From NCBI GenBank assembly GCA_951812505.1, contig CATOSI010000002.1, forward strand, positions 372,001-436,000: a DNA stretch of 64,000 nucleotides, given 5' to 3'. Below are positions 1,208-11,711 of this stretch, one piece after another (positions within the stretch are counted from its first letter, which is position 1; each line of letters begins with the position of its first letter). Made by a program: the position numbers and the translations under genes. The notes beneath the pieces are model-generated. The model did not search any database. It was not told the origin of the DNA and saw only the letters and a program-made list of their open reading frames with translations. This stretch comes from an uncultured Dehalococcoidia bacterium (lineage in GTDB: Bacteria > Chloroflexota > Dehalococcoidia > Lucifugimonadales > UBA1123).

Positions 1208-1573
1208 TCAGGATATGGGTATGACGGCTCGCTTGTGGACGGCTTTGCCTATCTGGTTGTCTCCCTCGAAGGCTTCTATTTCGTAGGTGAGGCGGTTGCG
1301 GTCTATTTCGGTGAGGACGGACCGGACGCGGACTGTCCGGCCGACGTTGGTGGGGGCGATGTGGCGGAGTCCGTCCACTGCGTATCCGACGCTGGTGTAG
1401 CCGTCGGGCAGGTGTGGGTCGGTGGCCTTGATGCTGGCGTTTTCCATGAGTCCGAGAAGGTGTGGGGTGGAGAGGACGTCGGCGCCCTCTGTGCCCATGC
1501 GGTTGGTGGTGAGGTCGGTGGTTACTTCGACCTCGAGGACAGCTTCCTGTCCGGTGGCGATGTTCTGCATCAT
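1208..1573 (-). CDS. FlK-like hotdog acyl-CoA thioesterase
   Basis: A 121-residue single-domain hotdog protein of the fluoroacetyl-CoA thioesterase (FlK)-like family, expected to hydrolyse a small acyl-CoA in the cytoplasm. The three residues that form the FlK active site are all at their expected places: Thr in LSTPHLLGLMEN, Glu in the same helix (LMEN), and His in LRHIAPTNVG. The family pattern SVGYAVDGLRHIAPTNVG is clear. Start ATG at 1573 is preceded by AAAGGAG. Substrate is unknown. FlK relatives in non-fluorinating bacteria probably act on ordinary short acyl-CoAs, so fluoroacetate resistance should not be assumed. Confidence 0.85.
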   Translation of the reverse strand: MMQNIATGQEAVLEVEVTTDLTTNRMGTEGADVLSTPHLLGLMENASIKATDPHLPDGYTSVGYAVDGLRHIAPTNVGRTVRVRSVLTEIDRNRLTYEIEAFEGDNQIGKAVHKRAVIPIS

Positions 1574-2105
1574 TCTTGGTTTTCTCCTTTTTCAATTGTC
1601 AGTTTCCAATTATCAATTATCAATTGTCGGGTTTCAATTATCAAATTGTCGGGTTTTTTGAGTGGTGATATATGGGAGTTTATATCGCCTCTGGTGGGAA
1701 CAGGTGGCTTGACTGGTGGGCAACAGGTGATTTCTTCACCTGAGTTTGACCTGAGATCGCCTGAGTTTAGCTACATAAAAAATTTTCGGTAGGCTATTCA
1801 TACAGGATTGATAAATGGCTGTTTATGTCCTTGAAGGACATTCTCGTTTCCTCATGTGCATAACTCCGGTAGCTTATAGCGTTGATTATGGGGTCGTAAT
1901 GGATACAGTGATGATAACTTAGAGTTTCCAGGTTCCTCTTGACGCAACTTTGTCATTACCTATATTATCAAAGAGAACTCATATTCGCAATGCTGAATTG
2001 GGGAATTCGTTCCCCGGACGGGAGAACAGGATTCGATGGATACCCGCTTTCGCGGGTATGACGGTAGTTATGCAATGGTCTGAGTTGCAGAGGGAGATGA
2101 TGGGA
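1574..2105. repeat. Intergenic region with AATT-type and GGATAC-type repeats
   Basis: 1592-1650 holds an AATT-rich dispersed repeat (CAATTATCAATTGTCGGG units) directly upstream of the thioesterase start. 1651-1990 is AT-rich with no gene I can support. 2031-2072 is a palindromic repeat variant (GGATACCCGC-TTTCGCGGGTATGACGG). An open frame runs from this repeat into the next gene, but that N-terminal part is only translated repeat. Confidence 0.55.
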
Positions 2106-2489
2106 ATGGAGCGAGAACATATTGCGCGAAAGAGTAAGCCGTGTCCGGCTACGAAGCGTAACGGGGAGGTGTGCGGGTCAATACGAGTTTCGGCTTCGGG
2201 GTATTGCTTCGCGCACGACCCGGAGTCGGCTGAGTGGCGAGCGATGGGTGGACGGGCAAGCAACAAGAGGAAGCGGGCGGTGAAGCAGTTGAAGGAGGCA
2301 GGGATGGGGCATCTTCTGGATGCCCTGGAAGAGACGCTGGAGGAGCTTCGTTCAGGCGAAGGGGATCCAAGCAGCGCAAGAGCGAAAGCGAGAGTTGCAG
2401 AGACGATATGGAGGATAGTGAACGGGGCAGATGATGAAGCTAAAGCGGATTCGGCAGCGCGATGGCCTACGAAGTGGGATCTGTATTAG
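2106..2489 (+). CDS. Small Cys/His-rich protein next to terminase
   Basis: About 127 residues, not a named family I can assign with certainty. The N-terminus has the spacing C-P-A-T-K-R-N-G-x-x-C, then YCFAHDPE, which looks like a CxxxxxxxC...CxxH zinc-binding knuckle. Then come a basic linker (GGRASNKRKRAVKQL) and acidic helices. Start choice: ATGs lie at 2097, 2100 and 2106. AGGGAG (2091-2096) directly abuts the first and is 9 nt before the third, so 2106 is preferred. Upstream in-frame codons are repeat sequence. It sits ~190 bp before a terminase large subunit, so a DNA-binding small-terminase-like role is an attractive inference, not proven. Confidence 0.6.
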   Translation: MEREHIARKSKPCPATKRNGEVCGSIRVSASGYCFAHDPESAEWRAMGGRASNKRKRAVKQLKEAGMGHLLDALEETLEELRSGEGDPSSARAKARVAETIWRIVNGADDEAKADSAARWPTKWDLY

Positions 2490-2540
2490 TCAGAATCAGG
2501 ATTTTCTGGATTTATGGGATGAGCAGGATGGGATTGAAAG
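2490..2540. repeat. Dispersed repeat GTCAGAATCAGGATTTTC type
   Basis: The sequence right after the stop codon (TTAGTCAGAATCAGGATTTTCTGG... GATGAGCAGGATGGG) is one member of a degenerate repeat. Others occur at 4430-4470, 11749-11800 and 13288-13325. Each sits directly at the 3' end of a gene. Confidence 0.5.
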
Positions 2541-2676
2541 GAGACGATAGATCGAAGTTGGAGGCATGATACTTGGAGTGAAGGAATGGGAGGCGGCGTG
2601 TGAGCCATATCAGGGAGTTGTCAGTATTTAGTGATCAGTAATCGTGTAACAGGGGCAGACGCCGGAAAAGCACTTG

Positions 2677-3951
2677 ATGGAGCCGGGTGGCGGAAGATGG
2701 GAGAGGGAGATGCGTGGGGTGAGGGAGCAGGAAGGGAAGCGGGAGATTTGGGAGTCTTACCTATGGGAAGAGAAGGGGTCGGAGAAGCAGCGGGAGCCGG
2801 AGGGGGATTGGGCGGTGTGGTTGTTGATGGCTGGACGCGGGTTTGGGAAGACGCGGGCGGGGGCTGAGTGGGTGCGTGAGCGGATAAGCCGGGGCGAGAG
2901 TGGGAGGGTGGCGCTGGTGGCTCCGACGCCGGACGATGTTCGGAATGTGATGGTGGAGGGTGTGTCGGGGCTGCTGCGGGTGTCGCCTCCGTGGTCCATG
3001 CCGAAGTATGAGCCGTCGAAGCGGAAGTTGACGTGGCCGAATGGGGCAATCGCGCTGGGTTTTTCGAGCTATGAGCCGGACCGCCTGCGGGGGCCGCAGT
3101 TCGATACGGCGTGGTGCGATGAGCTGGCGTCGTGGAAGCATCCCCGGGAGACGTGGGACAATTTGCAGTTCGGTCTGCGGCTGGGGGAGAGTCCGAGGTG
3201 CGCGGTGACGACTACTCCGAAGCCTATCGGTCTGCTGCGTGAGCTGAAGGAGCGGGAGGATGTGATGGTGACGACGGGCTCGACGTATGAGAATCGAGAT
3301 AATCTGGCGACGGAGTACATCGAGCACATAAGGCGTCGGTACGAGGGGACGCGGACGGGCAGGCAGGAGATTTACGCGGAGCTGCTGGACGAGTCGGAGG
3401 ACTCGCTGTGGAGGCGGGACTGGATCGAGGTGTCGCGGGTACGCGAGGCGCCGGAGCTCGCGCGGGTAGTGGTGGCGGTTGATCCGGCGGTGTCGTCGCG
3501 GTCGGCTTCGTCGGAGACGGGGATCGTGGTGGCGGGGGCGGATGAGGATGGGCACGCTTACGTGCTGGCGGACGCTTCGGGGCAGATGTCGCCGGACGGC
3601 TGGGCAAGGCGAGCGATAGCAATGCTGGACAGGTATGGAGCGGACCGGGTAATCGGCGAGTCGAATAACGGGGGCGACCTGGTGGAGCATACTATCAGGA
3701 CGGCCTACGATGACCGAGTGGTGCCGTATAAGTCGGTGCGCGCGAGCCGGGGGAAGTACGCGAGGGCGGAGCCGGTGTCGGCTTTGTACGAGCAGGGAAA
3801 GGTGCATCACGTGGGCGGCCTGGACGCTCTGGAGGACCAGATGTGTACCTGGTCGCCGGGGTCGGAGGGGTCGGCGGACAGGCTGGACGCGCTGGTGTGG
3901 GCGGTTACGGAGCTTTTGTTGAACAGGAGGGGGTTGTGGCTGTGGGTGTAG
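2677..3951 (+). CDS. Terminase large subunit (GTA/phage type)
   Basis: DNA-packaging motor: an N-terminal ATPase translocates DNA into a capsid and a C-terminal RNase-H-like nuclease cuts it. Seen: Walker A LLMAGRGFGKTRAGAEWV (residues ~50-67), Walker B region FDTAWCDELASW (~145), coupling motif CAVTTTPKP (~180), then nuclease acidic residues in VVAVDPAVSS (~270), VIGESNNGGDLV (~330) and DRLDALVWAV (~410). The order and the opening PEGDWAVWLL resemble the gene-transfer-agent gp2 type. No portal, capsid or tail gene follows, so it stands alone beside a small zinc-knuckle protein. It is intact, which argues against a simple prophage relic. The start is uncertain (TTG 2674, ATG 2677 or ATG 2710). 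Confidence 0.88.
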   Translation: MEPGGGRWEREMRGVREQEGKREIWESYLWEEKGSEKQREPEGDWAVWLLMAGRGFGKTRAGAEWVRERISRGESGRVALVAPTPDDVRNVMVEGVSGLLRVSPPWSMPKYEPSKRKLTWPNGAIALGFSSYEPDRLRGPQFDTAWCDELASWKHPRETWDNLQFGLRLGESPRCAVTTTPKPIGLLRELKEREDVMVTTGSTYENRDNLATEYIEHIRRRYEGTRTGRQEIYAELLDESEDSLWRRDWIEVSRVREAPELARVVVAVDPAVSSRSASSETGIVVAGADEDGHAYVLADASGQMSPDGWARRAIAMLDRYGADRVIGESNNGGDLVEHTIRTAYDDRVVPYKSVRASRGKYARAEPVSALYEQGKVHHVGGLDALEDQMCTWSPGSEGSADRLDALVWAVTELLLNRRGLWLWV

Positions 3952-3960
3952 GGGTCAATT

Positions 3961-4407
3961 GACAATTGGGAATTATCAATTAGGAATTGGGAGTTCGGGA
4001 TGGTGGAGAAGCATTCGATATATTGTGATGACTGCGGTCGGGAGAAGATGGCGGAGGTGCGGGATGGGAAGATTGTGATTGTGGACCGGAGGCATGGGAG
4101 GCGTCATGTGACAATTGGGAATTATCAATTAGGAATTGGGAGTTCGGGATGGTGGAGAAGCATTCGATATATTGTGATGACTGCGGTCGGGAGAAGATGG
4201 CGGAGGTGCGGGATGGGAAGATTGTGATTGTGGACCGGAGGCATGGGAGGCGTCATGTGACAATTGGGAATTATCAATTAGGAATTGGGAGTTCGGGATG
4301 GTGGAGAAGCATTCGATATATTGTGATGACTGCGGTCGGGAGAAGATGGCGGAGGTGCGGGACGGGAAGATTGTGATTGTGGACCGGAGGCATGGGAGGA
4401 GACATGT
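3961..4407 (+). repeat. Three tandem 149-bp repeats, each with a mini-gene
   Basis: Three head-to-tail copies start at 3961, 4110 and 4259 with period exactly 149 bp and only scattered differences. Examples are a C for T in copy 3 in the GCGGGAYGGGAAG stretch, and GAGACATG for GCGTCATG at its end. Each unit begins with an AATT-rich dispersed repeat (GACAATTGGGAATTATCAAT) followed by the ATG of a mini-gene at 4000, 4149 and 4298. Because 149 is not a multiple of three, copies 1 and 2 lose frame and run into the next unit. Confidence 0.93.
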
Positions 4408-4483
4408 GGCGGTGATACCGCTGGGGCGGTTGTCAGAATCAGGATTTACAGGATGTGAGGATGGACAGGATAGACACGCTTAG
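4298..4483 (+). CDS. Mini zinc-ribbon protein, third tandem copy
   Basis: The core starting MVEKHSIYCDDCGREKM has a CxxC pair; a following His/Arg-rich tail (RRHGRRHV) could complete a metal site. Copies 1 (from 4000) and 2 (from 4149) encode the same first 37 residues but then shift frame at the repeat junction, so only this copy keeps the likely original continuation (VAVIPLGRL). Even here the last ~17 codons come from a dispersed repeat. Similar tiny zinc proteins (for example Com of Mu-like phages) regulate phage genes, and the terminase upstream suggests a phage/GTA origin. Function is unknown. Confidence 0.5.
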   Translation: MVEKHSIYCDDCGREKMAEVRDGKIVIVDRRHGRRHVAVIPLGRLSESGFTGCEDGQDRHA

Positions 4484-4570
4484 GCGGTGTGTTTGGTTGA
4501 CAGATAATCGAAAGATGGGTGGTCTGGCGGATGAACAGATTGACACAAAGCGGCGATATGACGGATTTCT
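4408..4570. repeat. Spacer with dispersed repeat
   Basis: 4430-4470 is a copy of the TTGTCAGAATCAGGATTT repeat. The rest (to 4570) shows no gene and leads into the promoter region of the CopG-type gene. Confidence 0.45.
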
Positions 4571-4590
4571 TACGTACAGGTACATACGTA
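4571..4590 (+). promoter_or_regulatory. Candidate antitoxin operator TACGTA-N8-TACGTA
   Basis: TACGTACAGGTACATACGTA carries the palindrome TACGTA twice, 8 bp apart, just before the ribosome site (GGGAGG, 4593-4598) of a ribbon-helix-helix gene. RHH antitoxins generally repress their own operon by binding short palindromes at the promoter. That this is the operator is inference. Confidence 0.4.
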
Positions 4591-4604
4591 TAGGGAGGTT
4601 GGAA

Positions 4605-4856
4605 ATGGCACGGCTGTCTGTACGGCTGGATGATGAGCAGAGACGGCGATTGGATGAGCTTGTGGAGGCGAGGGGTGCGCCTATCTCGGAGGTGGTGCGA
4701 CGGCTGATTGATGATGCTTATGAGGAGATCATGCTGGAGCGTCGCAGGGCGGCGGTGGAGCGGATGGCGGCGATGGAGATTGAGGATGTGCCCGACCCGG
4801 AGACGCTGTCGCGGGAGTTGGAGGCGGCGCATGAGCCGGGCGGTATCAGGAATTGA
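4605..4856 (+). CDS. CopG/RHH-type antitoxin
   Basis: 83 residues. N-terminal ribbon-helix-helix pattern: MARLSVRLDDEQRRRLDEL (beta strand then helix 1), then PISEVVRRLIDDAYEE (helix 2). The acidic C-terminal tail (EIEDVPDPETLSREL) would clamp a partner toxin. Start ATG 4605 follows GGGAGG by 6 nt; upstream in-frame codons lack RHH character. The partner should be a PIN ribonuclease, but only its last part remains at 4886-5023. The stop codon and last codons (GGIRN) fall at the edge of an AATT-rich repeat (4850-4886). It is now probably an orphan antitoxin that could buffer a toxin elsewhere. Confidence 0.8.
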   Translation: MARLSVRLDDEQRRRLDELVEARGAPISEVVRRLIDDAYEEIMLERRRAAVERMAAMEIEDVPDPETLSRELEAAHEPGGIRN

Positions 4857-4886
4857 GAATTTTCAATTAAGAATTGGGAATTGGGG
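4857..4886. repeat. AATT-rich dispersed repeat at gene junction
   Basis: GAATTTTCAATTAAGAATTG and following GGAATTGGGGG occupy exactly the junction between the antitoxin stop and the first PIN-like codon. The same motif is at 1592-1650, 3961-3995, 4110-4142, 4259-4291 and 11695-11725. Confidence 0.75.
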
Positions 4887-5023
4887 GTTATGCGGCGCAT
4901 GGGGCGGATATGATCGTATCGGCGGATTCGGATTTCGACCGGATAGCGGATGTGGAGCGGCTGGATCCGGCTGATGTGGGGGAGTGGAGCGGTCTTGTCT
5001 CAAATGGCACGTGGGAGATGTAG
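4886..5023 (+). pseudogene. C-terminal relic of a PIN-domain (VapC-like) toxin
   Basis: In frame from 4886 the sequence reads GYAAHGADMIVSADSDFDRI and then ADVERLDPADVGEW to a TAG at 5021-5023. The block xxAxxxxADxIVSADxDFDxI...LDP is the classic C-terminal part of PIN ribonucleases, including the last metal-binding Asp of the SAD.DFD motif. The N-terminal ~90 residues with the first catalytic Asp and Glu are missing and are replaced by the AATT repeat. An internal ATG (4910) could still start a 37-residue peptide, but it would not be an active nuclease. Best read as a toxin destroyed by deletion at the repeat. Confidence 0.68.
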
Positions 5024-5026
5024 GAC

Positions 5027-5215
5027 ATGATCTTATCCGCGACTCAGAACTCCATCGAGGGGCAGATTGGCGAGTTGCGGGGCGAGGTTGGCGGGTTGAG
5101 AGGGGAGGTAAATGGGCTCAAGAGTCGGATGGATGATGTGCACCGGTTCTTGATGGTGGTGATCGGAGTGGCGGGCGGCAGTCTGATTACGGCGCCGGTC
5201 AGCCTGGTGGTGTAG
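5027..5215 (+). CDS. Small coiled-coil protein with C-terminal TM helix
   Basis: 62 residues. Heptad-like repeats GELRGEVGGLRGEVNGLKSR (residues ~14-33) predict a coiled coil. A hydrophobic segment (FLMVVIGVAGGSLITAPVSLVV) makes a tail anchor at the extreme C-terminus. It begins 3 nt after the PIN relic stop and is followed by an intrinsic terminator at 5270. Phage-associated and toxin-adjacent loci often carry such short coil/TM proteins (holin-like), but no function can be assigned. Confidence 0.5.
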   Translation: MILSATQNSIEGQIGELRGEVGGLRGEVNGLKSRMDDVHRFLMVVIGVAGGSLITAPVSLVV

Positions 5216-5269
5216 TTGGTGAAGTAACAGACGGCGCGCAGCGAGACAGGGCGGACAGCTAATATATGG

Positions 5270-5302
5270 ACCGTCTCCGGATTGCGGGGGCGGTTTTGTT
5301 TC
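5270..5302 (+). terminator. Intrinsic terminator
   Basis: ACCGTCTCCG (5270-5279) pairs with CGGGGGCGGT (5285-5294) over ten base pairs including G-U pairs, with loop GATTG. It is followed by TTTTGTTT. It would end the CopG/coil transcript. Confidence 0.8.
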
Positions 5303-5398
5303 CTTGAATAGACTCTGCCGGAATCTTGGAGTGGACTTATGTTCTCGGTTACAATTTGCAGCAGTGCAAACTTACTTGACGGAACACGGAAATGACCT

Positions 5399-6397
5399 AT
5401 GAATACGATGCCCATCACCACTGCATATGATTCCCCGAGCGGCAAGATCATACGTGTCGGAGACGCTGTTCGGGGTGGACGCTATGACGGCATTCCGGGT
5501 GGCGTGCATGAACGTTGCAAGCTCTACCCGCGTCTCTCGGTCAAGCGTCAACCTTCATTCAGTCATATGCCCGGCAAGAGTTGTCGGCATTCAAGCGGGG
5601 AATCTCCTGAACACCGACAAGCCAAGAAGACATGGGCCCAGTACATCAGAGACCAAATATCTGGATGCCCGATTTGTGTTCATGATGGCAGGAACGCTTC
5701 GCATATAGAATGTCCCGCGCTGACATTAGTTAGCGGCGAACGGATGGAGCCATGGACTGCTCGGAGCCCTGGTATTCTGTGGTTCTGCAAGAAATGTGGA
5801 GAGCCGCACCTTCATGACCTGTATAAGGGCGCGGTTGTGGTGGAGACAGAGTTTTACCTGTCGCGTGAATGTGTCAGAACCCGAGCGGACATTGCAATTC
5901 TGGATGAGTCAGCGCAACCGATTGCCATTATCGAGATTAGGCGGAAACATCTGTCGGATAGGCCGGGACAGTATGCGGAACTGACAGACATCCCACTGTT
6001 CGTCGTGGATGTGTCTCGTGGTGAAGCCGTACAGCCTGAGTTGCACAACATCAAGAATAAAATTAGGGAGCCTTGGCCTGATTTGACAACACAACCACCT
6101 CGGCACTTTGATGCGTTGTCATACCGATTTGGCAGCTCTGACGGCGATTTATACTTCAGGGCCAGATTCGACGGAAAGGGTGAGTTGCACTACGAACTGA
6201 AACATTCCGGCAAGCATGATTATCATGCTCCATCCCCCAGCATCGGGCCGTTTCTCCTAGCTGAGTCTTCCACACTCCGATGCGAGGACATTACCCAAGG
6301 TATATTCGAGAAGGTTTTCCCTGGTGAATCCTTCGACGAAGAAGCATATCTAGAGGGTGACGACTGGGACGGAAATGTGATCCTGACACATTCCTGA
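5399..6397 (+). CDS. CoiA-like nuclease-domain protein
   Basis: 332 residues. SGESPEHRQAKKTWAQYI (~67-84) is the ES..H..AK helix typical of CoiA-type proteins. Cys pairs (CPICVHDG, WFCKKCGEPHLH) suggest a zinc ribbon inserted before the nuclease core. RTRADIAILD...IAIIEIRRKHLSD (~160-185) matches the RxDvA...aiEiq core of CoiA-like PD-(D/E)xK domains. CoiA acts in competence; relatives occur in defence islands. This region (5399-8004) is visibly richer in A+T than its surroundings, consistent with transfer. The first ~60 residues have no recognisable domain, so the start may be later. Substrate is unknown. Confidence 0.6.
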   Translation: MNTMPITTAYDSPSGKIIRVGDAVRGGRYDGIPGGVHERCKLYPRLSVKRQPSFSHMPGKSCRHSSGESPEHRQAKKTWAQYIRDQISGCPICVHDGRNASHIECPALTLVSGERMEPWTARSPGILWFCKKCGEPHLHDLYKGAVVVETEFYLSRECVRTRADIAILDESAQPIAIIEIRRKHLSDRPGQYAELTDIPLFVVDVSRGEAVQPELHNIKNKIREPWPDLTTQPPRHFDALSYRFGSSDGDLYFRARFDGKGELHYELKHSGKHDYHAPSPSIGPFLLAESSTLRCEDITQGIFEKVFPGESFDEEAYLEGDDWDGNVILTHS

Positions 6398-6413
6398 AAC
6401 TAAGGAGCGCTCA

Positions 6414-6845
6414 GTGTATCGTTTAGGTTGGGCCGGATTGGGAATGCTGGTAGGCGTAATCCTCGCAGGAGGATTTGCCATAGTGATTGTCCAGATACTG
6501 ATACCCTGGGAAGCTATATGCGCGACGGTAGCTCCGTCGCAAGAGGTTGTCAGGTTGGGCAGTCTGCTGATTGCGGAGTTGCAGGCATGGCTGCTGAAAG
6601 CCGAGGAGTTCATAGGTTCAGGCGGTTCGCCAGCGCAGGGAACCGAAGTGAGAGAAGGGCTTGGCGGACTCTTAGACAGGGCAAAAGGAGAAGTTCAGGC
6701 GGCTACCAGCGTGGTTGTTGACGTGGTCACCGCTCCTCTCCGCCTACTGATTGATGCCGCGCAGGTCATCTTGGATGCGGTACAGGGCGTAGTGGATGCG
6801 GCGCGTGAGTCGCTTGACAGTATTGACCAGTCGCGTTGCAGCTAA
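6414..6845 (+). CDS. Membrane-anchored amphipathic-helix protein
   Basis: 143 residues from GTG 6414, preceded by AAGGAG. One N-terminal membrane helix (LGWAGLGMLVGVILAGGFAIVIVQ minus ends, residues ~4-27). After it come long Ala/Val/Leu/Asp-rich helices (for example LLIDAAQVILDAVQGVVDAA) with alternating hydrophobic faces, suggesting an oligomerising or membrane-associating region. It starts 16 nt after the CoiA-like gene, so the two are probably co-transcribed. I do not recognise the family. Confidence 0.55.
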   Translation: MYRLGWAGLGMLVGVILAGGFAIVIVQILIPWEAICATVAPSQEVVRLGSLLIAELQAWLLKAEEFIGSGGSPAQGTEVREGLGGLLDRAKGEVQAATSVVVDVVTAPLRLLIDAAQVILDAVQGVVDAARESLDSIDQSRCS

Positions 6846-6955
6846 TGTGAGATTTAGCTGGCGGACAATGGTGGGGCACCATAGCACAAGCACTCCCAGT
6901 CCCCAGCAGGTACTTGGGGATAAGGCCGCCGGGGGCGGCGGTTGGGGGGGGGTGA

Positions 6956-6961
6956 TAGAAT
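6956..6961 (+). promoter_or_regulatory. -10 element (TAGAAT) for the Ntn hydrolase gene
   Basis: GTGATAGAATC lies 30 nt before the ATG at 6991 and shares its form with the Uma2 gene promoters (GTGTTAGAATC at 18124, GTGGTAGAATC at 37473). No clear -35. Confidence 0.4.
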
Positions 6962-6990
6962 CGCGCCATCCAAACATTCAGGAGGACACG

Positions 6991-8004
6991 ATGACCACCC
7001 TTGTAGCATTGAACACGATGAACGGCCTCGTCATGGGTTGCGATAGCTTGGCGACTCATAATCAGAGGCTCGTTGATCCGAGTAAGCTTCTCACAGTTGT
7101 TAATATGGACGATTTTGATCTGGACGAACCTCTAATCTCATTTGGAGAACTCATAGCAGAAAGCACTTTAGTCCCAATCAACCATATAACCCAAGAGGAA
7201 AAAATGGTCTCTCTAGCTCCTATGGATGTAGGTGTAATGTTTACAGGCATCGCCGCCATAGGAAATCGCACTGTTCAGAGTATGGTTGAGGAACTTAAGA
7301 TTAGAGACTCTAACCCAATCAGAGTCTTGGAATATCGTATGAGCGAGGGTGGTGGGCAGTGGACAATTGAGTGGATCGCAAATTGGCTGCGGGACCGCAT
7401 TGGTCAACACTATAGTGAACAATACCAAGATTTGCCCGAATCCATACGTCCCGCACTTGAGATAATGGTCGGTGGATATGATCCTCATGGGACTGTTCCA
7501 TGCGTAGCAAGAGTCGACGTAAGAGAGCAGGAAGTAGAGGTAGATCACGCGTTCACTGTACATCTTGGCGCACAGAGCACGGAAATACAAAGATTACTAT
7601 TCGGCATAGACGATGAAAACGAAGGGGTACTTAATACACAAGCTGAAGAACTACTTAGGGCGTACAGAGCCGATATCGAAACTGCTCTCAAGAGTGCAGG
7701 CATCTCCATAGAAAATGTTGAGCTACCCGATCCTACGAACTATGAAGTGAATCAGGTCTTGTCTGACGGCTGGGGATTGAAGGGACTTCGCGCACCATGG
7801 GGTCAGTTCTCCGTACAGAACGCGATAGATTGTGTGGATTTTCTGGTGAATATCATGATTCGTTCGCATCAGTTCAAGTTGGAAATGCCCACTGTGGGCG
7901 GGCCGGCGCAAATCGGAGTAATCCAAAAGGGTCGGGGGTTCAAATACGTTTCTGAAAGGGTATGGCGGCATGGCGGCACTGTTACACCCATCGAGGAATC
8001 ATGA
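6991..8004 (+). CDS. Proteasome-fold Ntn hydrolase with large insertion
   Basis: 337 residues. After removal of Met1 the protein would begin TTLVALNTMNGLVMGCDSLA, matching HslV and proteasome beta subunits (catalytic Thr1; Asp17 in the CDS position; ADS-like motif). The usual Lys33-containing strand is displaced. About 48 residues are inserted and the likely equivalent is EEKMVSLAPMDVG followed by VMFTGIAAIGNRTVQSMVEEL. The C-terminal ~170 residues have no match I recognise. Start 6991 is fixed by GGAGG (6981-6985) and by the need for Thr at position 2; upstream in-frame codons are unrelated. It is probably a self-compartmentalising peptidase or amidase of an uncommon type (Anbu/BPH-like). 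No ATPase partner is adjacent. Confidence 0.68.
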   Translation: MTTLVALNTMNGLVMGCDSLATHNQRLVDPSKLLTVVNMDDFDLDEPLISFGELIAESTLVPINHITQEEKMVSLAPMDVGVMFTGIAAIGNRTVQSMVEELKIRDSNPIRVLEYRMSEGGGQWTIEWIANWLRDRIGQHYSEQYQDLPESIRPALEIMVGGYDPHGTVPCVARVDVREQEVEVDHAFTVHLGAQSTEIQRLLFGIDDENEGVLNTQAEELLRAYRADIETALKSAGISIENVELPDPTNYEVNQVLSDGWGLKGLRAPWGQFSVQNAIDCVDFLVNIMIRSHQFKLEMPTVGGPAQIGVIQKGRGFKYVSERVWRHGGTVTPIEES

Positions 8005-8488
8005 CAGTCGTAGCCGCTACTGCACCTTCTTAAGAATCGAGCGGTACACAGGGCCTCGGGGGATGGCGGCCTCGATCTCGATAGCCACGGACGCGCCGTT
8101 GTCCAGGACTGACACGGAGACGCGGGCTGTCCGAGGTCGTCGTGGCCAAGCGCCGCCGGTAGTTCACGCACGGCTTGACTAGTGCTGCGTCCAGATATTT
8201 ATGACATTATCGGGTCGCCCCCAACCCCTGGAATCCCGCCTTCGCGGGAATGACGGTTCGCTGTCGGAGTGCGACAAATTCATATGGTTTTGGTACTAGA
8301 GGATGGTTCGGGCATACTTGGTCAGTCGCTCGATGTCTTCCCACGCCGCGCCCTCTCGCTCTTCGTCGGGGCTGATTTCTATTTCGAGGTCAACGCCATT
8401 TCGGCGCCGGCGGACAGCCGGGGTGTCGGGCGGTTATGATAGGGTGAGAGGGCAAGGATTTTTTCGGTGATTGGGTTGGAGGTGAGAT
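8005..8488. repeat. Repeat insertion flanked by two possible gene fragments
   Basis: 8175-8260 carries an IS630-like end variant (CTAGTGCTGCGTCCAG) and a GGAATCCCGCCTTCGCGGGAATGACGG-type core. On the minus strand two short stretches have coding-like composition. One reads VSVLDNGASVAIEIEAAIPR through KKVQ and stops at 8017. The other reads NGVDLEIEISPDEEREGAAW through RTIL and stops at 8296. They could be parts of one or two genes broken by the repeat. I cannot assign a family to either. Confidence 0.35.
8435..8440 (+). promoter_or_regulatory. -10 element (TATGAT) of Uma2 gene
   Basis: GGGCGGTTATGATAGGG lies 49 nt before the Uma2 start. The same 12-mer GGGCGGTTATGA is found before the S9 peptidase gene at 52840, where a TTGACG -35 is also present. 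Confidence 0.4.
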
Positions 8489-9244
8489 ATGGTAACGAAG
8501 TTGACGGTTCATCCGCCGCCGTCGGGGCTGCGTCCGCAGCCGAGCGATAAGTTGGCGAGGTTGCCCGACCCGCCGAGGGAACCGGAAGCCATGCAGCAGA
8601 TACCGTTGATCGCGTTGATTCTCTTCGTCATCAAGGATTTCTTCGAGGGACGGGAGGATGTTCTGGTGGGGTCGGAGGGGTATCTGTGCAGAGAGGCGCG
8701 GACGCGCTCGGACCTGTTCGTTCCGGACATCGTGTTCGCGCAGGGGGTGAACGCGGATGTGATAGTGAATATCCAGAACGGGTATGTGATAGAGGATGTG
8801 GGCAAGCCGCCGGACCTGGTTCTGGAGGTGGCGTCGCCAAGCACGGGCAGGCGGGATTACACGGTGAAGCGGGATGGGTACGCGCGGCTTGGGGTTGGCG
8901 AGTACTGGCGTTTCGATCCGAGCGGCGGGGAGTATCATGACGCTCCGCTGGCGGGGGACCTGCTGGTGGATGGGGCGTATGAGCCAATCGAGCTGAATCA
9001 TGGGGCGGACGGCTCTATCTGGGGAAGGAGCGAGGCGCTAGGGCTGGACTTGCATTGGGTGGAGGGCGGTCTGCGATTTTATGATTACGAGCGGGGCAGG
9101 TTTCTTCTGGACCATGAGGAGCTCAAGGCGCAGATGGCCGAGGCTGAGGCACGCGCGGACAGCGAGGCGAGGCGGGCGGATATCGAGTCCAGGGCGAGGG
9201 CTGAGGCTGAAGTGGAGTTGGCGCGGCTGCGCGAGGAAGGCTGA
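8489..9244 (+). CDS. Uma2-family (DUF820) putative endonuclease
   Basis: 251 residues, PD-(D/E)xK-fold family abundant in Chloroflexota and cyanobacteria; molecular target unknown. Core seen: RSDLFVPDIVFAQG (first acidic residue), DLVLEVASPST (second acidic), then RRDYTVKRDGYARLGVGEYW ending in W-R-F-D-P, the family's Y..aGV.eYW.vD block. A C-terminal coiled coil of Ala/Glu/Arg heptads (EAEARADSEARRADIESRAR) follows, a common Uma2 extension. Start ATG 8489 follows GGAGGTGAG. It is transcribed alone and belongs to a set with 14584 and 18346 but is the most divergent of the three. Confidence 0.85.
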   Translation: MVTKLTVHPPPSGLRPQPSDKLARLPDPPREPEAMQQIPLIALILFVIKDFFEGREDVLVGSEGYLCREARTRSDLFVPDIVFAQGVNADVIVNIQNGYVIEDVGKPPDLVLEVASPSTGRRDYTVKRDGYARLGVGEYWRFDPSGGEYHDAPLAGDLLVDGAYEPIELNHGADGSIWGRSEALGLDLHWVEGGLRFYDYERGRFLLDHEELKAQMAEAEARADSEARRADIESRARAEAEVELARLREEG

Positions 9245-9295
9245 GCCTTCACCCTTGTTCTGGGCGGTCGGTCAGTGGGGCATCTAGGCGTATTG

Positions 9296-10219
9296 TCAAG
9301 CGGTTAGTTCGGCTGTCAATCTGCGGGCGGTCTCGATCAGGCTTGTTATCATTTCGTCGCTCAGGGTGTCGTGGGTGAAGCCGTGGATGATGGCGTCTCC
9401 CTGTTTGCGCAGGTCGGCCAGGTTGAGGCAGTCGTCCCATGAGATGATTCTGCGGTTGAGGGCCTGGTTGAGGGCGTAGCTCGTGTTGGAGCTTGAGCGC
9501 TGTTCGTCGGCCATGGAGGCTCTGAGGGCGGCCTCGCAAGCGGACAGGGCAAGCATGAGGGCGGCTTCGGAGAGGCCGGATTCGAGGGCTTTTTCGGCGT
9601 GTTGGGTTAGTTTGAGGATTTTCTGTCGGTCAGGAGGCGTTTCCGCGGTCGGGGCGTTGCGGCTCTGCGGCTCGCCGACGAGGATTAGCTCGAAAGTCCA
9701 GCCGGGCTTGGATTTTATGATGTAGGCCAACTGGGAGATTCTGCGGTCGGCGGCGATCGAGGAGCGGGTCTTGACCTCGATTACTCTTGTCTTGCCGTCT
9801 TCGCGGACGATGAGGTCGGCGCGGAAGCCAGGGAAGAAGTCGAGGGGAACTTGTGTTGAGACGTCGAGGCCCTCGCTCCGAAGTTTTTTGGCTGTTTTGT
9901 GCGCGACGTGTCTTTCTACGAATTCGGGGTTGACTTCTACAACGGGGCGGGCGCGGGCGAACCAGTCGGCGTCGAGTTCGAAGGCGTCGGGGTCACGGGC
10001 GATGCCGGCGTTGATGGCGGTTTCCTCACCGTACTGGGCTTCGATTTCGGTGAAGGTCAAGTCGGTCGCGGCGAGTTGGGCGAATGAGAGGCGTTGGGCG
10101 GCGGCAAGGCCGCGCTCTTTGGCTCCCCATTCGGCCATGATGTCGGCGTATTTCTCGAAGGGCAGGCTATCTAGGTAGTCTGTATCGTTTATGTCAATAT
10201 GAGCGTATTTCTCTCTCAT
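9296..10219 (-). CDS. BrnA-like segment fused to REase_AHJR-like nuclease domain
   Basis: 307 residues from ATG 10219 (GGAGGGAG upstream). Residues ~1-100: helical region ending ETAINAGIARDPDAFELDAD then WFARARP, the DUF4415/BrnA pattern EaxInaaIaxDPDxxELtdexFaRARP. The usual C-terminal RHH of BrnA is missing. Instead, residues ~110-190 form a PD-(D/E)xK domain: FFPGFRADLIVREDGKTRV then IEVKTRSS, and KPGWTFELILV, as in REase_AHJR-like proteins. Residues ~205-307 are helical (ALMLALSACEAALRASM; LRKQGDAIIHGF), resembling a HEPN/DUF4145-like bundle whose Arg is lost. It overlaps brnT by 26 nt, as antitoxin genes do. Probably a composite antitoxin or effector; the fusion itself is directly readable. 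Confidence 0.66.
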   Translation of the reverse strand: MREKYAHIDINDTDYLDSLPFEKYADIMAEWGAKERGLAAAQRLSFAQLAATDLTFTEIEAQYGEETAINAGIARDPDAFELDADWFARARPVVEVNPEFVERHVAHKTAKKLRSEGLDVSTQVPLDFFPGFRADLIVREDGKTRVIEVKTRSSIAADRRISQLAYIIKSKPGWTFELILVGEPQSRNAPTAETPPDRQKILKLTQHAEKALESGLSEAALMLALSACEAALRASMADEQRSSSNTSYALNQALNRRIISWDDCLNLADLRKQGDAIIHGFTHDTLSDEMITSLIETARRLTAELTA

Positions 10220-10466
10220 AATGTCTTCTCTCCCTCCGGGAGGGTTTGCGTAGGCTGATGATTCTGCGCCTGTTGCCACGTTCGGTGTAGATTACGGTGT
10301 AGAGCTGGTTTCCGATATAGCTGACGGCAATATAGCGCAACTCGTTATCACGCGGACTTTTCTCGGTTACCGCATTATCCCAGTCGAAATCTAAAATAGC
10401 CTCGAAGTCAATTTCGTGCTTGTCCAGGTTGGATCGCCGCTTGGATTCGTCCCACTCGTATGGCAT
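10194..10466 (-). CDS. brnT: BrnT-type ribonuclease toxin (DUF497)
   Basis: 90 residues. Starts MPYEWDESKRRSNLDKHEID, the hallmark F.WDe.K...N..KHgi.F of BrnT, followed by RYIAVSYIGNQLYTVIYTER and RRIISLRKPSRRERRHYE, where conserved Arg/His/Tyr build the RelE-like active site. BrnT cleaves RNA and is neutralised by BrnA. Its 3' end overlaps the hybrid BrnA/REase gene by 26 nt, so the two are translationally coupled. A -10 lies only 6 nt upstream of the ATG, suggesting a leaderless mRNA. Confidence 0.86.
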   Translation of the reverse strand: MPYEWDESKRRSNLDKHEIDFEAILDFDWDNAVTEKSPRDNELRYIAVSYIGNQLYTVIYTERGNRRRIISLRKPSRRERRHYEREIRSY

Positions 10467-10483
10467 GGGTATATTGTATAGTG
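10467..10483 (-). promoter_or_regulatory. brnT promoter with TACAAT -10 and TATA dyad
   Basis: On the minus strand CACTATACAATATACCC immediately precedes ATG. TACAAT (10478-10473) is separated from ATG by six bases, so transcription should begin at or next to the start codon. The TATA-TTG-TATA near-palindrome overlaps the -10 and is a plausible site for autorepression. Confidence 0.45.
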
Positions 10484-10544
10484 AATCGGGGATCGGATGA
10501 AGGATTTGTTTTCAAAAGAGGGGGTTGCAGCAGTTTCGAATCCG

Positions 10545-10585
10545 CCGCTTCCTGGATTCCCACTTTCGTGGGAATGACGAGTGTC
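10545..10585. repeat. Palindromic repeat core
   Basis: TTCCTGGATTCCCACTTTCG then TGGGAATGACGAG: a copy of the window-wide core hairpin between the divergent brnT and enolase genes. Confidence 0.6.
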
Positions 10586-10625
10586 AGGATTTTGCAATTG
10601 TCTCTTACCAAGGAGGGTGAGCGGA

Positions 10626-11711
10626 ATGAAGATTACGGGTGTGGAGTGTTTGGTACTGGATGGGGATTATCCGTTTGTGAAGGTGCGGACGGATGAGGGG
10701 ATTACGGGAATCGGGGAGTGTTTCAGGCGGCAGCCGGGGGTGACGAAGGCGCTTATCGAGGACCACCTGGCTCCGGCTATCGTTGGGAAGGACCCGCTGG
10801 ACACGGGTCTGCGGTTCAGGGACATGATGGGCGCGGGGTCTGCGGTGGAGATGGGCGGGGCGGTGTTCTGCGCGATCGCGGGGCTGGATATCGCGCTGTG
10901 GGATATCAAGGGGAAGGCGTTCGGGGCGCCTATCTACAAGCTGCTTGGCGGCAAGGTAAGGGACAAGGTGAAGGTTTACGCGAGTTCGATGCGGCGGGAC
11001 CTGACTCCGCTGGAGGAGGGCAGGCGGGCGGCTTCGTTCGTGGAACAGGGGTACAGTGGGTACAAGCTGCACAGCGCGGTGCCGGGGGAGATTGACGATC
11101 CGGCGGACGAGACTATCAAGACGGTGACGGAGGTCCGGGCGGCGGTCGGGGATGATATTGACATTCTGGTGGACGTGAATGGGGCGTACTCGGTACACCA
11201 GTCCATGTACATCGGGGCGGCGCTGGAGGATCTGGGGGTGTTCCATTTCGAGGAGCCGCGTCCGGCGCAGGACCTGGAGGGTCTGGCGCGGATCGCGGAC
11301 GCGCTGACGATTCCGATAGCTTCGGGGGAGATGATCTACACTCATCACGAGTACCGGGACCTGATTACTAAGGGCAGGGTGGATATCATCCAGCCGGATA
11401 TCGTGAAGGTGCCGGGGTTCACGGAGTTCGTGAAGATAGAGGCGCTGGCGTCGGCGTTCAATATACCGATCACGGTGCATAATACTCAGCCGATACTCAG
11501 CACTGTGGCGCACCTGCATTTCTGCGCGGCGAGTTCGATGGCGCCGTATTCGCAGGAGTACAATATCGAGCCGATTTCGATACGGGACGAGTGGCCGATT
11601 CTGAAGGAGCCGCTGGAGGTGGTTGACGGGTATATCGCGGTGCCTGAGGGCCCGGGGTTGGGGGTGGAGCTGGATGAGGAGATGGTGGGGAAATTAGCAA
11701 TTGGGAATTAA
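10626..11711 (+). CDS. Mandelate racemase/muconate lactonizing (enolase superfamily) enzyme
   Basis: 361 residues. An N-terminal capping domain is followed by a TIM barrel with the three metal ligands in ILVDVNGAY (Asp), FHFEEPRP (Glu) and IASGEMIY (Glu). A His-Asp dyad is seen as IIQPDIVK and ITVHNTQP, placing it in the mandelate racemase subgroup (racemase or sugar-acid dehydratase; cytoplasmic). The Kx[K/H] base motif reads GYKLHS. Start ATG 10626 is preceded by AGGAGGGTG. The last four codons (AIGN) and the stop come from an inserted AATT repeat. Substrate cannot be predicted. Expansions of this superfamily are known in SAR202. Confidence 0.88.
   Translation: MKITGVECLVLDGDYPFVKVRTDEGITGIGECFRRQPGVTKALIEDHLAPAIVGKDPLDTGLRFRDMMGAGSAVEMGGAVFCAIAGLDIALWDIKGKAFGAPIYKLLGGKVRDKVKVYASSMRRDLTPLEEGRRAASFVEQGYSGYKLHSAVPGEIDDPADETIKTVTEVRAAVGDDIDILVDVNGAYSVHQSMYIGAALEDLGVFHFEEPRPAQDLEGLARIADALTIPIASGEMIYTHHEYRDLITKGRVDIIQPDIVKVPGFTEFVKIEALASAFNIPITVHNTQPILSTVAHLHFCAASSMAPYSQEYNIEPISIRDEWPILKEPLEVVDGYIAVPEGPGLGVELDEEMVGKLAIGN

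Follow-up and report, generated by a model that had tools for sequence, protein, structure and literature searches.

A predicted proteasome-like hydrolase with two insertions, encoded on an accessory island of an uncultured Dehalococcoidia bacterium, has relatives in phages, phage satellites and plasmids

Proteasome relatives are usually regarded as housekeeping barrels. In 2021, Fuchs, Alva and Lupas described 22 new proteasome homologs, and in their PMI group the core carries insertions (PMC8665760). There, PMI-5 and PMI-6 have an insertion at S3/S4, unstructured in the first and made of two helices in the second, PMI-2 to PMI-6 have one at H3/H4, and PMI-3 and PMI-4 have one after H1/H2; PMI-5 is reported from Proteobacteria only and PMI-4 in phages too, and a telling gene context is given for none of the new homologs (PMC8665760). 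A 156-aa phage ‘proteasome subunit beta’ that appears in an excerpt of another article (PMC4936722) is too short for the long form of the family that we describe below. We found no functional study of the protein analyzed here, or of its phage relatives, in the open-access PMC literature, preprints not included. This protein (hereafter the window protein) is encoded in a stretch of 64,000 nucleotides, the whole of which we call the window. The reading that we favor, and to which we give an even chance of being right, is that it is a PMI-type (closest to PMI-5) stand-alone Ntn hydrolase, carried as cargo of a phage-related mobile island.

Concerning the start of the gene (Table 1), a Shine-Dalgarno-like motif stands five bases upstream of the ATG, and Thr2 therefore comes directly after the start Met. 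A longer in-frame ORF of the same gene begins at 6796, an unlikely start because the matches of relatives begin at the Met-Thr of 6991. Met before Thr is a usual substrate of methionine aminopeptidase, which would here remove Met1; the window protein has no predicted propeptide.

Table 1. Features of the window discussed in the text (position 1 is the first nucleotide of the window).
Feature	Position	Strand	Basis
Accessory island, ~9 kb	1572..10611	.	Comparison with two same-genus genomes
Phage terminase large subunit	2674..3951	+	Pfam Terminase_6N 5e-27, Terminase_6C 4e-17
Neighbouring ORF, weak HSDR_N_2 only	5399..6397	+	Pfam E 0.016, below cut-off
Small ORF, 143 aa, no Pfam match	6414..6845	+	Pfam
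AGGAGG, Shine-Dalgarno-like	6980..6985	+	Read in sequence; ATG 5 bases downstream
Gene for proteasome-like (PMI-type) Ntn hydrolase, 337 aa	6991..8004	+	ORF, relatives, predicted fold
Thr2 codon (proteasome Thr1), predicted nucleophile once Met1 is removed	6994..6996	+	Alignment, model register
Asp18 codon (proteasome Asp17)	7042..7044	+	Alignment A5
Residues 29-58, low-confidence part of ~37-residue S3/S4 insertion	7075..7164	+	Spacing; pLDDT < 50
Lys71 codon (proteasome Lys33)	7201..7203	+	Alignment A5
Gly86 codon, equivalent of Gly47 (oxyanion hole)	7246..7248	+	Alignment A5, spacing
Helical insertion, residues ~208-265, separating H3 from H4 of the core	7612..7785	+	Model helices
T301-V302-G303-G304 family signature	7891..7902	+	By eye, at Ser-Gly-Gly turn of proteasome subunits
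Uma2-type putative nuclease	8489..9244	+	Pfam 7.5e-14
AHJR-like REase-fold protein	9296..10279	-	Pfam 2e-13
BrnT-type RNase toxin	10194..10466	-	Pfam 8.7e-22

With the window protein alone as query, no Pfam family is found at E <= 1, PF00227 included, NCBIfam and PHROG give chance-level matches only, and no proteasome is retrieved by sequence from the PDB. Low-scoring PDB matches to NDUEG3, an acyl carrier protein, Cas9, DsbA, VpsO and cholera toxin B were rejected as due to chance, their folds being wrong with respect to the predicted model. PADLOC gives no family for the window protein at E <= 10, nor for eight relatives at E <= 1, and membership in a catalogued defence system was rejected on this ground. 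Peptide patterns derived from the window protein alone recover no close relatives in genome contigs or viral contigs, the protein by itself matches only its own genome among 98, and plasmid searches with it, with the LESphi2 protein, with P0006 or with P0010 gave no match. A profile of the 30-row wider-family alignment (A5) finds proteasome beta chains of the PDB at E = 4e-5; the 17-row profile of the long form alone reaches proteasome beta4 only at E = 0.27.

The fold was predicted with AlphaFold2 from 17 sequences (the window protein and database loci) and no templates. The resulting model has a mean pLDDT of 69.7 and a pTM of 0.68, with pLDDT < 50 at residues 29-58, 105-115, 295-301 and 322-337; a second model, of a Pseudomonas phage relative and built from the same 17 sequences, reaches a pLDDT of 79.9 and a pTM of 0.76. 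The window protein is modelled as a proteasome beta-type sandwich: 525 PDB chains match at E <= 0.001 in Foldseek, and the 50 matches listed out of these 525 are all proteasome entries. In VIA-align, where matches within 1 Z unit count as tied, the best among the matches listed is yeast beta5 (Z 18.5, rmsd 3.8, 201 aligned), with model residue 2 placed on residue 1 of the yeast chain, and Anbu (5nyw) scores Z 18.2. For the phage relative, the best among the matches listed is Anbu (Z 19.6, rmsd 2.8, 205 aligned), again with residue 2 on chain residue 1, and an archaeal 20S subunit has Z 19.1 (rmsd 2.9, 195 aligned). HslV and BPH are absent from the VIA-align matches listed for both models, an absence that excludes nothing. 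In a search of viral models, the best match (E 3.8e-8) is a siphovirus protein named ‘proteasome beta type-2 subunit’. A model lacking the Ntn sandwich would have spoken against the preliminary description of this gene as a proteasome-like Ntn hydrolase; both models are of proteasome type, and fold, register and catalytic places, as modelled and aligned, support that description.

Of the 30 rows of A5, 25 have Thr and five have Ser at position 2, 28 have Asp and two have Glu at position 18, the lysine equivalent to Lys71 is kept in all 30, and the position of Gly86 is Gly in 25. Lys71 and Gly86 are separated by 15 residues, and Lys33 and Gly47 of the proteasome by 14. By alignment and model, Thr2, Asp18, Lys71 and Gly86 are thus predicted to occupy the places of Thr1, Asp17, Lys33 and Gly47. 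The preliminary description had already set a Thr1 after Met, an Asp17 and an (A/C)DS motif, here CDS, in the proteasome frame, which start site, alignment and model bear out, and had left K71 and K32 as candidates for the Lys33 place, for which A5 (30/30) and the model point to K71. The TVGG signature has Val in 28 of the 30 rows and each Gly in all of them; as judged by eye against the yeast beta5 sequence, proteasome Ser169 presumably corresponds to Val302, and Asp166 is presumably missing. Because the rows of A5 were recruited by similarity, the conservation of these motifs is partly circular, and the structural comparison tests the assignment more independently. Once freed, Thr2 would attack a peptide or amide bond.

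Two insertions distinguish the protein. Asp18 and Lys71 lie 53 residues apart, against 16 for Asp17 and Lys33 of the proteasome, and an insertion of ~37 residues therefore precedes the lysine. For the 12 rows of A5 with the long form this distance is 52-58 residues (an insertion of 36-42), for a further nine (eight other short ones and P0007) it is 21-28, and for the remaining nine, of phrog_5990 type, 16-21. An insertion before Lys33 had been proposed from the start and is real, whereas the size of 48 residues then given to it gives way to ~37 by spacing count. It is disordered in the model of the window protein and forms short strands in that of the phage relative. The second insertion measures ~50-60 residues in the model of the window protein, whose helices after Lys71 span residues 197-204, 208-235 (an extended H3), 252-259 and 275-294 (H4), followed by final strands at 306-312 and 316-320; the loop after H2 is short. 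What had been taken for a long C-terminus of unknown nature thus holds, in the model, the remaining strands, H3, H4 and the final strands together with the H3/H4 insertion, so that the last ~170 residues are predicted to be the second half of the core fold plus this insertion, with no added domain.

Because of the H3/H4 insertion, an HslV-like double ring is unlikely, following an argument made by Fuchs et al. (PMC8665760). The enzyme would then work by itself or within a small complex, with no unfoldase and on a single protein or a few, and the ~37-residue loop beside the active site would restrict substrate entry, as in connectase. The latter likeness raises the alternative of a protein ligase resembling connectase, or of an enzyme dedicated to processing one partner, perhaps that encoded by the small ORF at 6414-6845. 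Its first insertion indeed sits at the S3/S4 site, which holds the specificity element of connectase (PMC8665760); however, in neither model does the insert take the form of two helices, leaving a connectase-type insert unsupported, and no neighbour is conserved across the bearers that we read, which makes this alternative very unlikely.

The gene for the putative stand-alone hydrolase lies in a stretch that interrupts an otherwise compact arrangement. In two genomes of the same genus (G001 and G003), only 233 and 466 bp separate the matches of the flanking genes 1208-1573 and 10581-11711, and the same intervals in the window are 9,117 and 9,050 bp; the intervening ~9 kb therefore represent an accessory island. 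In a third sister genome (G002) the flanks are on different contigs, and the empty site is therefore seen in two of three. The gene itself has 47.5% GC and a GC3 of 46%, against 59.7% GC for the window and a GC3 of 78% for a neighbouring chromosomal gene; together with the absence of the island from G001 and G003, this agrees with the A+T-richer accessory island of the preliminary description. In line with its statement that no HslU or other ATPase is near, we found no AAA+ unfoldase among the seven proteins scanned with Pfam (window protein included) and no HslU among the neighbouring ones. Its label of CoiA-like for the ORF at 5399-6397 finds no confirmation, Pfam giving only a sub-threshold HSDR_N_2 match. 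No att-like repeat was found within either edge stretch of the island, each searched alone.

Another contig of G002 bears a terminase, the N-terminal part of the AHJR-like gene and BrnT, with other ORFs in the place of the enzyme; we take the genes that this island adjoins to be ATP-synthase-like. The AHJR-like gene there (L075 1822-2286, on G002:C28) matches the window gene over its N-terminal part and continues into a different C-terminus, which by sequence suggests a domain swap or truncation. Dozens of copies related to part of the Uma2 gene (8777-9085) are spread over the genus, and some of them form tandem-like series (e.g. G003 C1:708806-711690 and C1:1518733-1521575). Short dispersed MITE-like repeats, with many copies of 70-95% identity in the window genome and in G002, occur at 984-1178, 1668-1790 and 8178-8302 of the window, one at the island's left edge and one just behind the enzyme gene.

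Relatives of the long form were found by tblastn in 16 of 50,697 phage records, all of Pseudomonas (24% identity over residues 1-330, E 3e-11); these records are near-identical and therefore not independent, and that of LESphi2 labels its copy ‘proteasome subunit beta’. The long form also occurs on 14 distinct viral contigs and at 12 genome-contig loci among 45 pattern matches, of which two (L024 and L025) match the C-terminal 55-71 residues only. Its bearers include Salinicola, Vreelandella, Pseudomonas, Stenotrophomonas and Luteibacter, and the record that holds one copy (L022) bears the title Candidatus Poribacteria. The profile matches 15 of 301 genomes in the phylum of the window genome and 21 of 393 in its class, with full-length proteins in two each (its own and G213; its own and G402). 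The G402 orthologue is the nearest relative found, with 39.1% identity over 322 positions and Thr2, Asp18 and Lys78, so that the Thr is next to the start Met in this orthologue as well. A third branch of the family is phrog_5990 (L050 matches it at 9.6e-114), annotated as of unknown function. The window genome encodes a second, shorter member of the family (L056, C3:340720-341118), of 245 aa with Ser at position 2 and a GTG start, which gives the only PF00227 signal of this genome, below threshold.

In a tree of 30 rows made by a quick method and leaving out the G402 orthologue, the window protein has the longest end branch (2.97 changes per column), and its grouping with 11 long-form rows has a support of 65, so that its exact placement is unsure. 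Such a branch, together with the lack of any close second copy in the genome, would suit an inactive or decaying copy. This we regard as extremely unlikely, since all four catalytic positions are kept, the ribosome site is good, the frame is open, and the G402 orthologue has the same residues at 39% identity.

A general protein-quality hydrolase acting with no ATPase, similar to the uncapped 20S activity discussed by Fuchs et al. (PMC8665760), is a further alternative. No PF00227 match above cut-off is present in the genome, which nonetheless has the shorter member on C3, and the lineage therefore carries such a protein outside the island. However, the distribution is patchy, with a full-length long form in two of 301 and two of 393 genomes, and the low GC of the gene and the absence of the island from two sister genomes also argue against a general role, which appears distinctly unlikely.

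Concerning the genomic context of relatives, we read three of the 16 Pseudomonas phage records, all P. aeruginosa phages, and in each of them the enzyme gene is oriented against the tail genes; in BR233a an annotated integrase lies immediately upstream. An integrase (phrog_1, 3e-64) is also found just upstream of the Vreelandella gene (L015), and tail-fibre genes are near the loci of Stenotrophomonas and Pseudomonas M47T1 (L017, L021). Among ten neighbours scanned at five loci, six match a phage family and four match none. On viral contig L013, which matches the Salinicola copy, a 1,819-aa phage-type ORF (1415-6874) adjoins the enzyme gene on the opposite strand, and a 1,456-aa ORF (phrog_616) lies downstream of the Vreelandella gene. 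No phage gene was seen near the G402 orthologue, whose neighbour we take to be a glycogen-debranching-like gene.

Members of phrog_5990 occur in 13 of the 50,697 phage records, namely seven Streptococcus satellites, two Streptococcus phages, two Stenotrophomonas phages, one Providencia phage and one Porphyromonas phage. Six of these contexts were read: the gene is the last but one in Javan468, the last, after the lysin, in Javan85, followed by a HAD-type hydrolase and a RelBE pair in Javan421, alone and oriented against the lysis genes in BUCT708, between methylase and lysis in the Providencia phage, and inside the head-tail module of the Porphyromonas phage. Single-gene cargo is mostly the common theme of these six, the Porphyromonas phage fitting less simply. 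The gene is common to Streptococcus satellites (L062 8517-9707, L065 9297-10502 and five more), where in L062 and L065 its place is towards the 3' end, after a small regulator gene. The same branch is found on 10 of 72,556 plasmids, of which nine contexts were read, eight with annotation. In four of these eight, all rhizobial (L082, NZ_CP149876.1; L083; L084; L069; ~11 kb each), it adjoins genes for multiubiquitin and a ThiF E1, with a ClpP-like protease also present in three; in the other four, multiubiquitin and ThiF genes do not adjoin it.

These contexts bear on the possibility that the enzyme serves the phage cycle, in takeover, anti-defence or maturation, and is merely stranded in the island. 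The terminase large subunit of the same island, the relative within the Porphyromonas head-tail module and those next to lysis genes in phages of Providencia and Stenotrophomonas are consistent with it. However, the gene opposes the tail genes in the three P. aeruginosa phages and the lysis genes in BUCT708, and many carriers are plasmids or ordinary genomes with no phage genes in view; we therefore hold a phage-cycle enzyme to be unlikely.

The carriage of this family suggests instead, for the PMI-type hydrolase as cargo of a mobile island, that its most likely role would be to give the element an advantage in conflicts between phages or between phage and host, where it might cut or modify one specific phage or host protein. 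The occurrence of relatives in phages and phage satellites makes such a putative role in defence or conflict more plausible. A bolder proposal, which we put forward as tentative and rather doubtful, is that PMI-type homologs on prophages, satellites, plasmids and islands may be unrecognised stand-alone conflict proteases or protein ligases: infection would make or expose a target, the Thr enzyme would cut it, and the lysogen or satellite would be protected. If true, the rhizobial neighbourhood of multiubiquitin, ThiF and ClpP would form a bacterial tagging-and-cutting arrangement. As two insertion-bearing branches are found on temperate phages, Streptococcus satellites and islands, orphan proteasome relatives gain a testable role, for which LESphi2 (gene P21_63) offers a ready laboratory handle.

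Compared by the published description of Fuchs et al. only (PMC8665760), the two-insertion pattern fits PMI-5 best, or else PMI-6. Shared features are the proteasome core, the Thr1/Asp17/Lys33/Gly47 set, the lack of a propeptide, and insertions at S3/S4 and H3/H4; spacing and models give an S3/S4 insertion that is not two-helical, as in PMI-5, and one at H3/H4. However, PMI-5 is listed there with no phages and from Proteobacteria only, whereas the relatives found here are in phages, in the record with the title Candidatus Poribacteria and in the window genome. From insertion patterns, we infer that phrog_5990 may be PMI-4-like and the short form PMI-2-like. phrog_5990 resembles the window protein in belonging to the same superfamily by alignment, and in being carried by phages, satellites and plasmids, and differs from it by an Asp-Lys spacing of only 16-22 residues and a large insertion after the first helices.

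Connectase, as described in the same source, is likewise a single subunit with an insertion at the same S3/S4 site, but it is archaeal, a protein ligase, and has a two-helical insert, whereas the window protein is known through sequence and models alone. PPH and AAH are proteasome-like and phage-carried, but belong to the compact group I that lacks such insertions, PPH having ~140 residues (PMC8665760). With Anbu and HslV the window protein shares the fold, and Anbu is among the best structural matches of both models; unlike them, it has two insertions, no PF00227 match and an Asp-Lys spacing of 53 rather than 16, and membership in HslV or the 20S proteasome was rejected for the latter two reasons. 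By predicted fold, the window protein belongs to an already known superfamily, and probably to a known subfamily within it; what is new here is its carriage on a ~9-kb island that has low GC and is absent from two genomes of the same genus.
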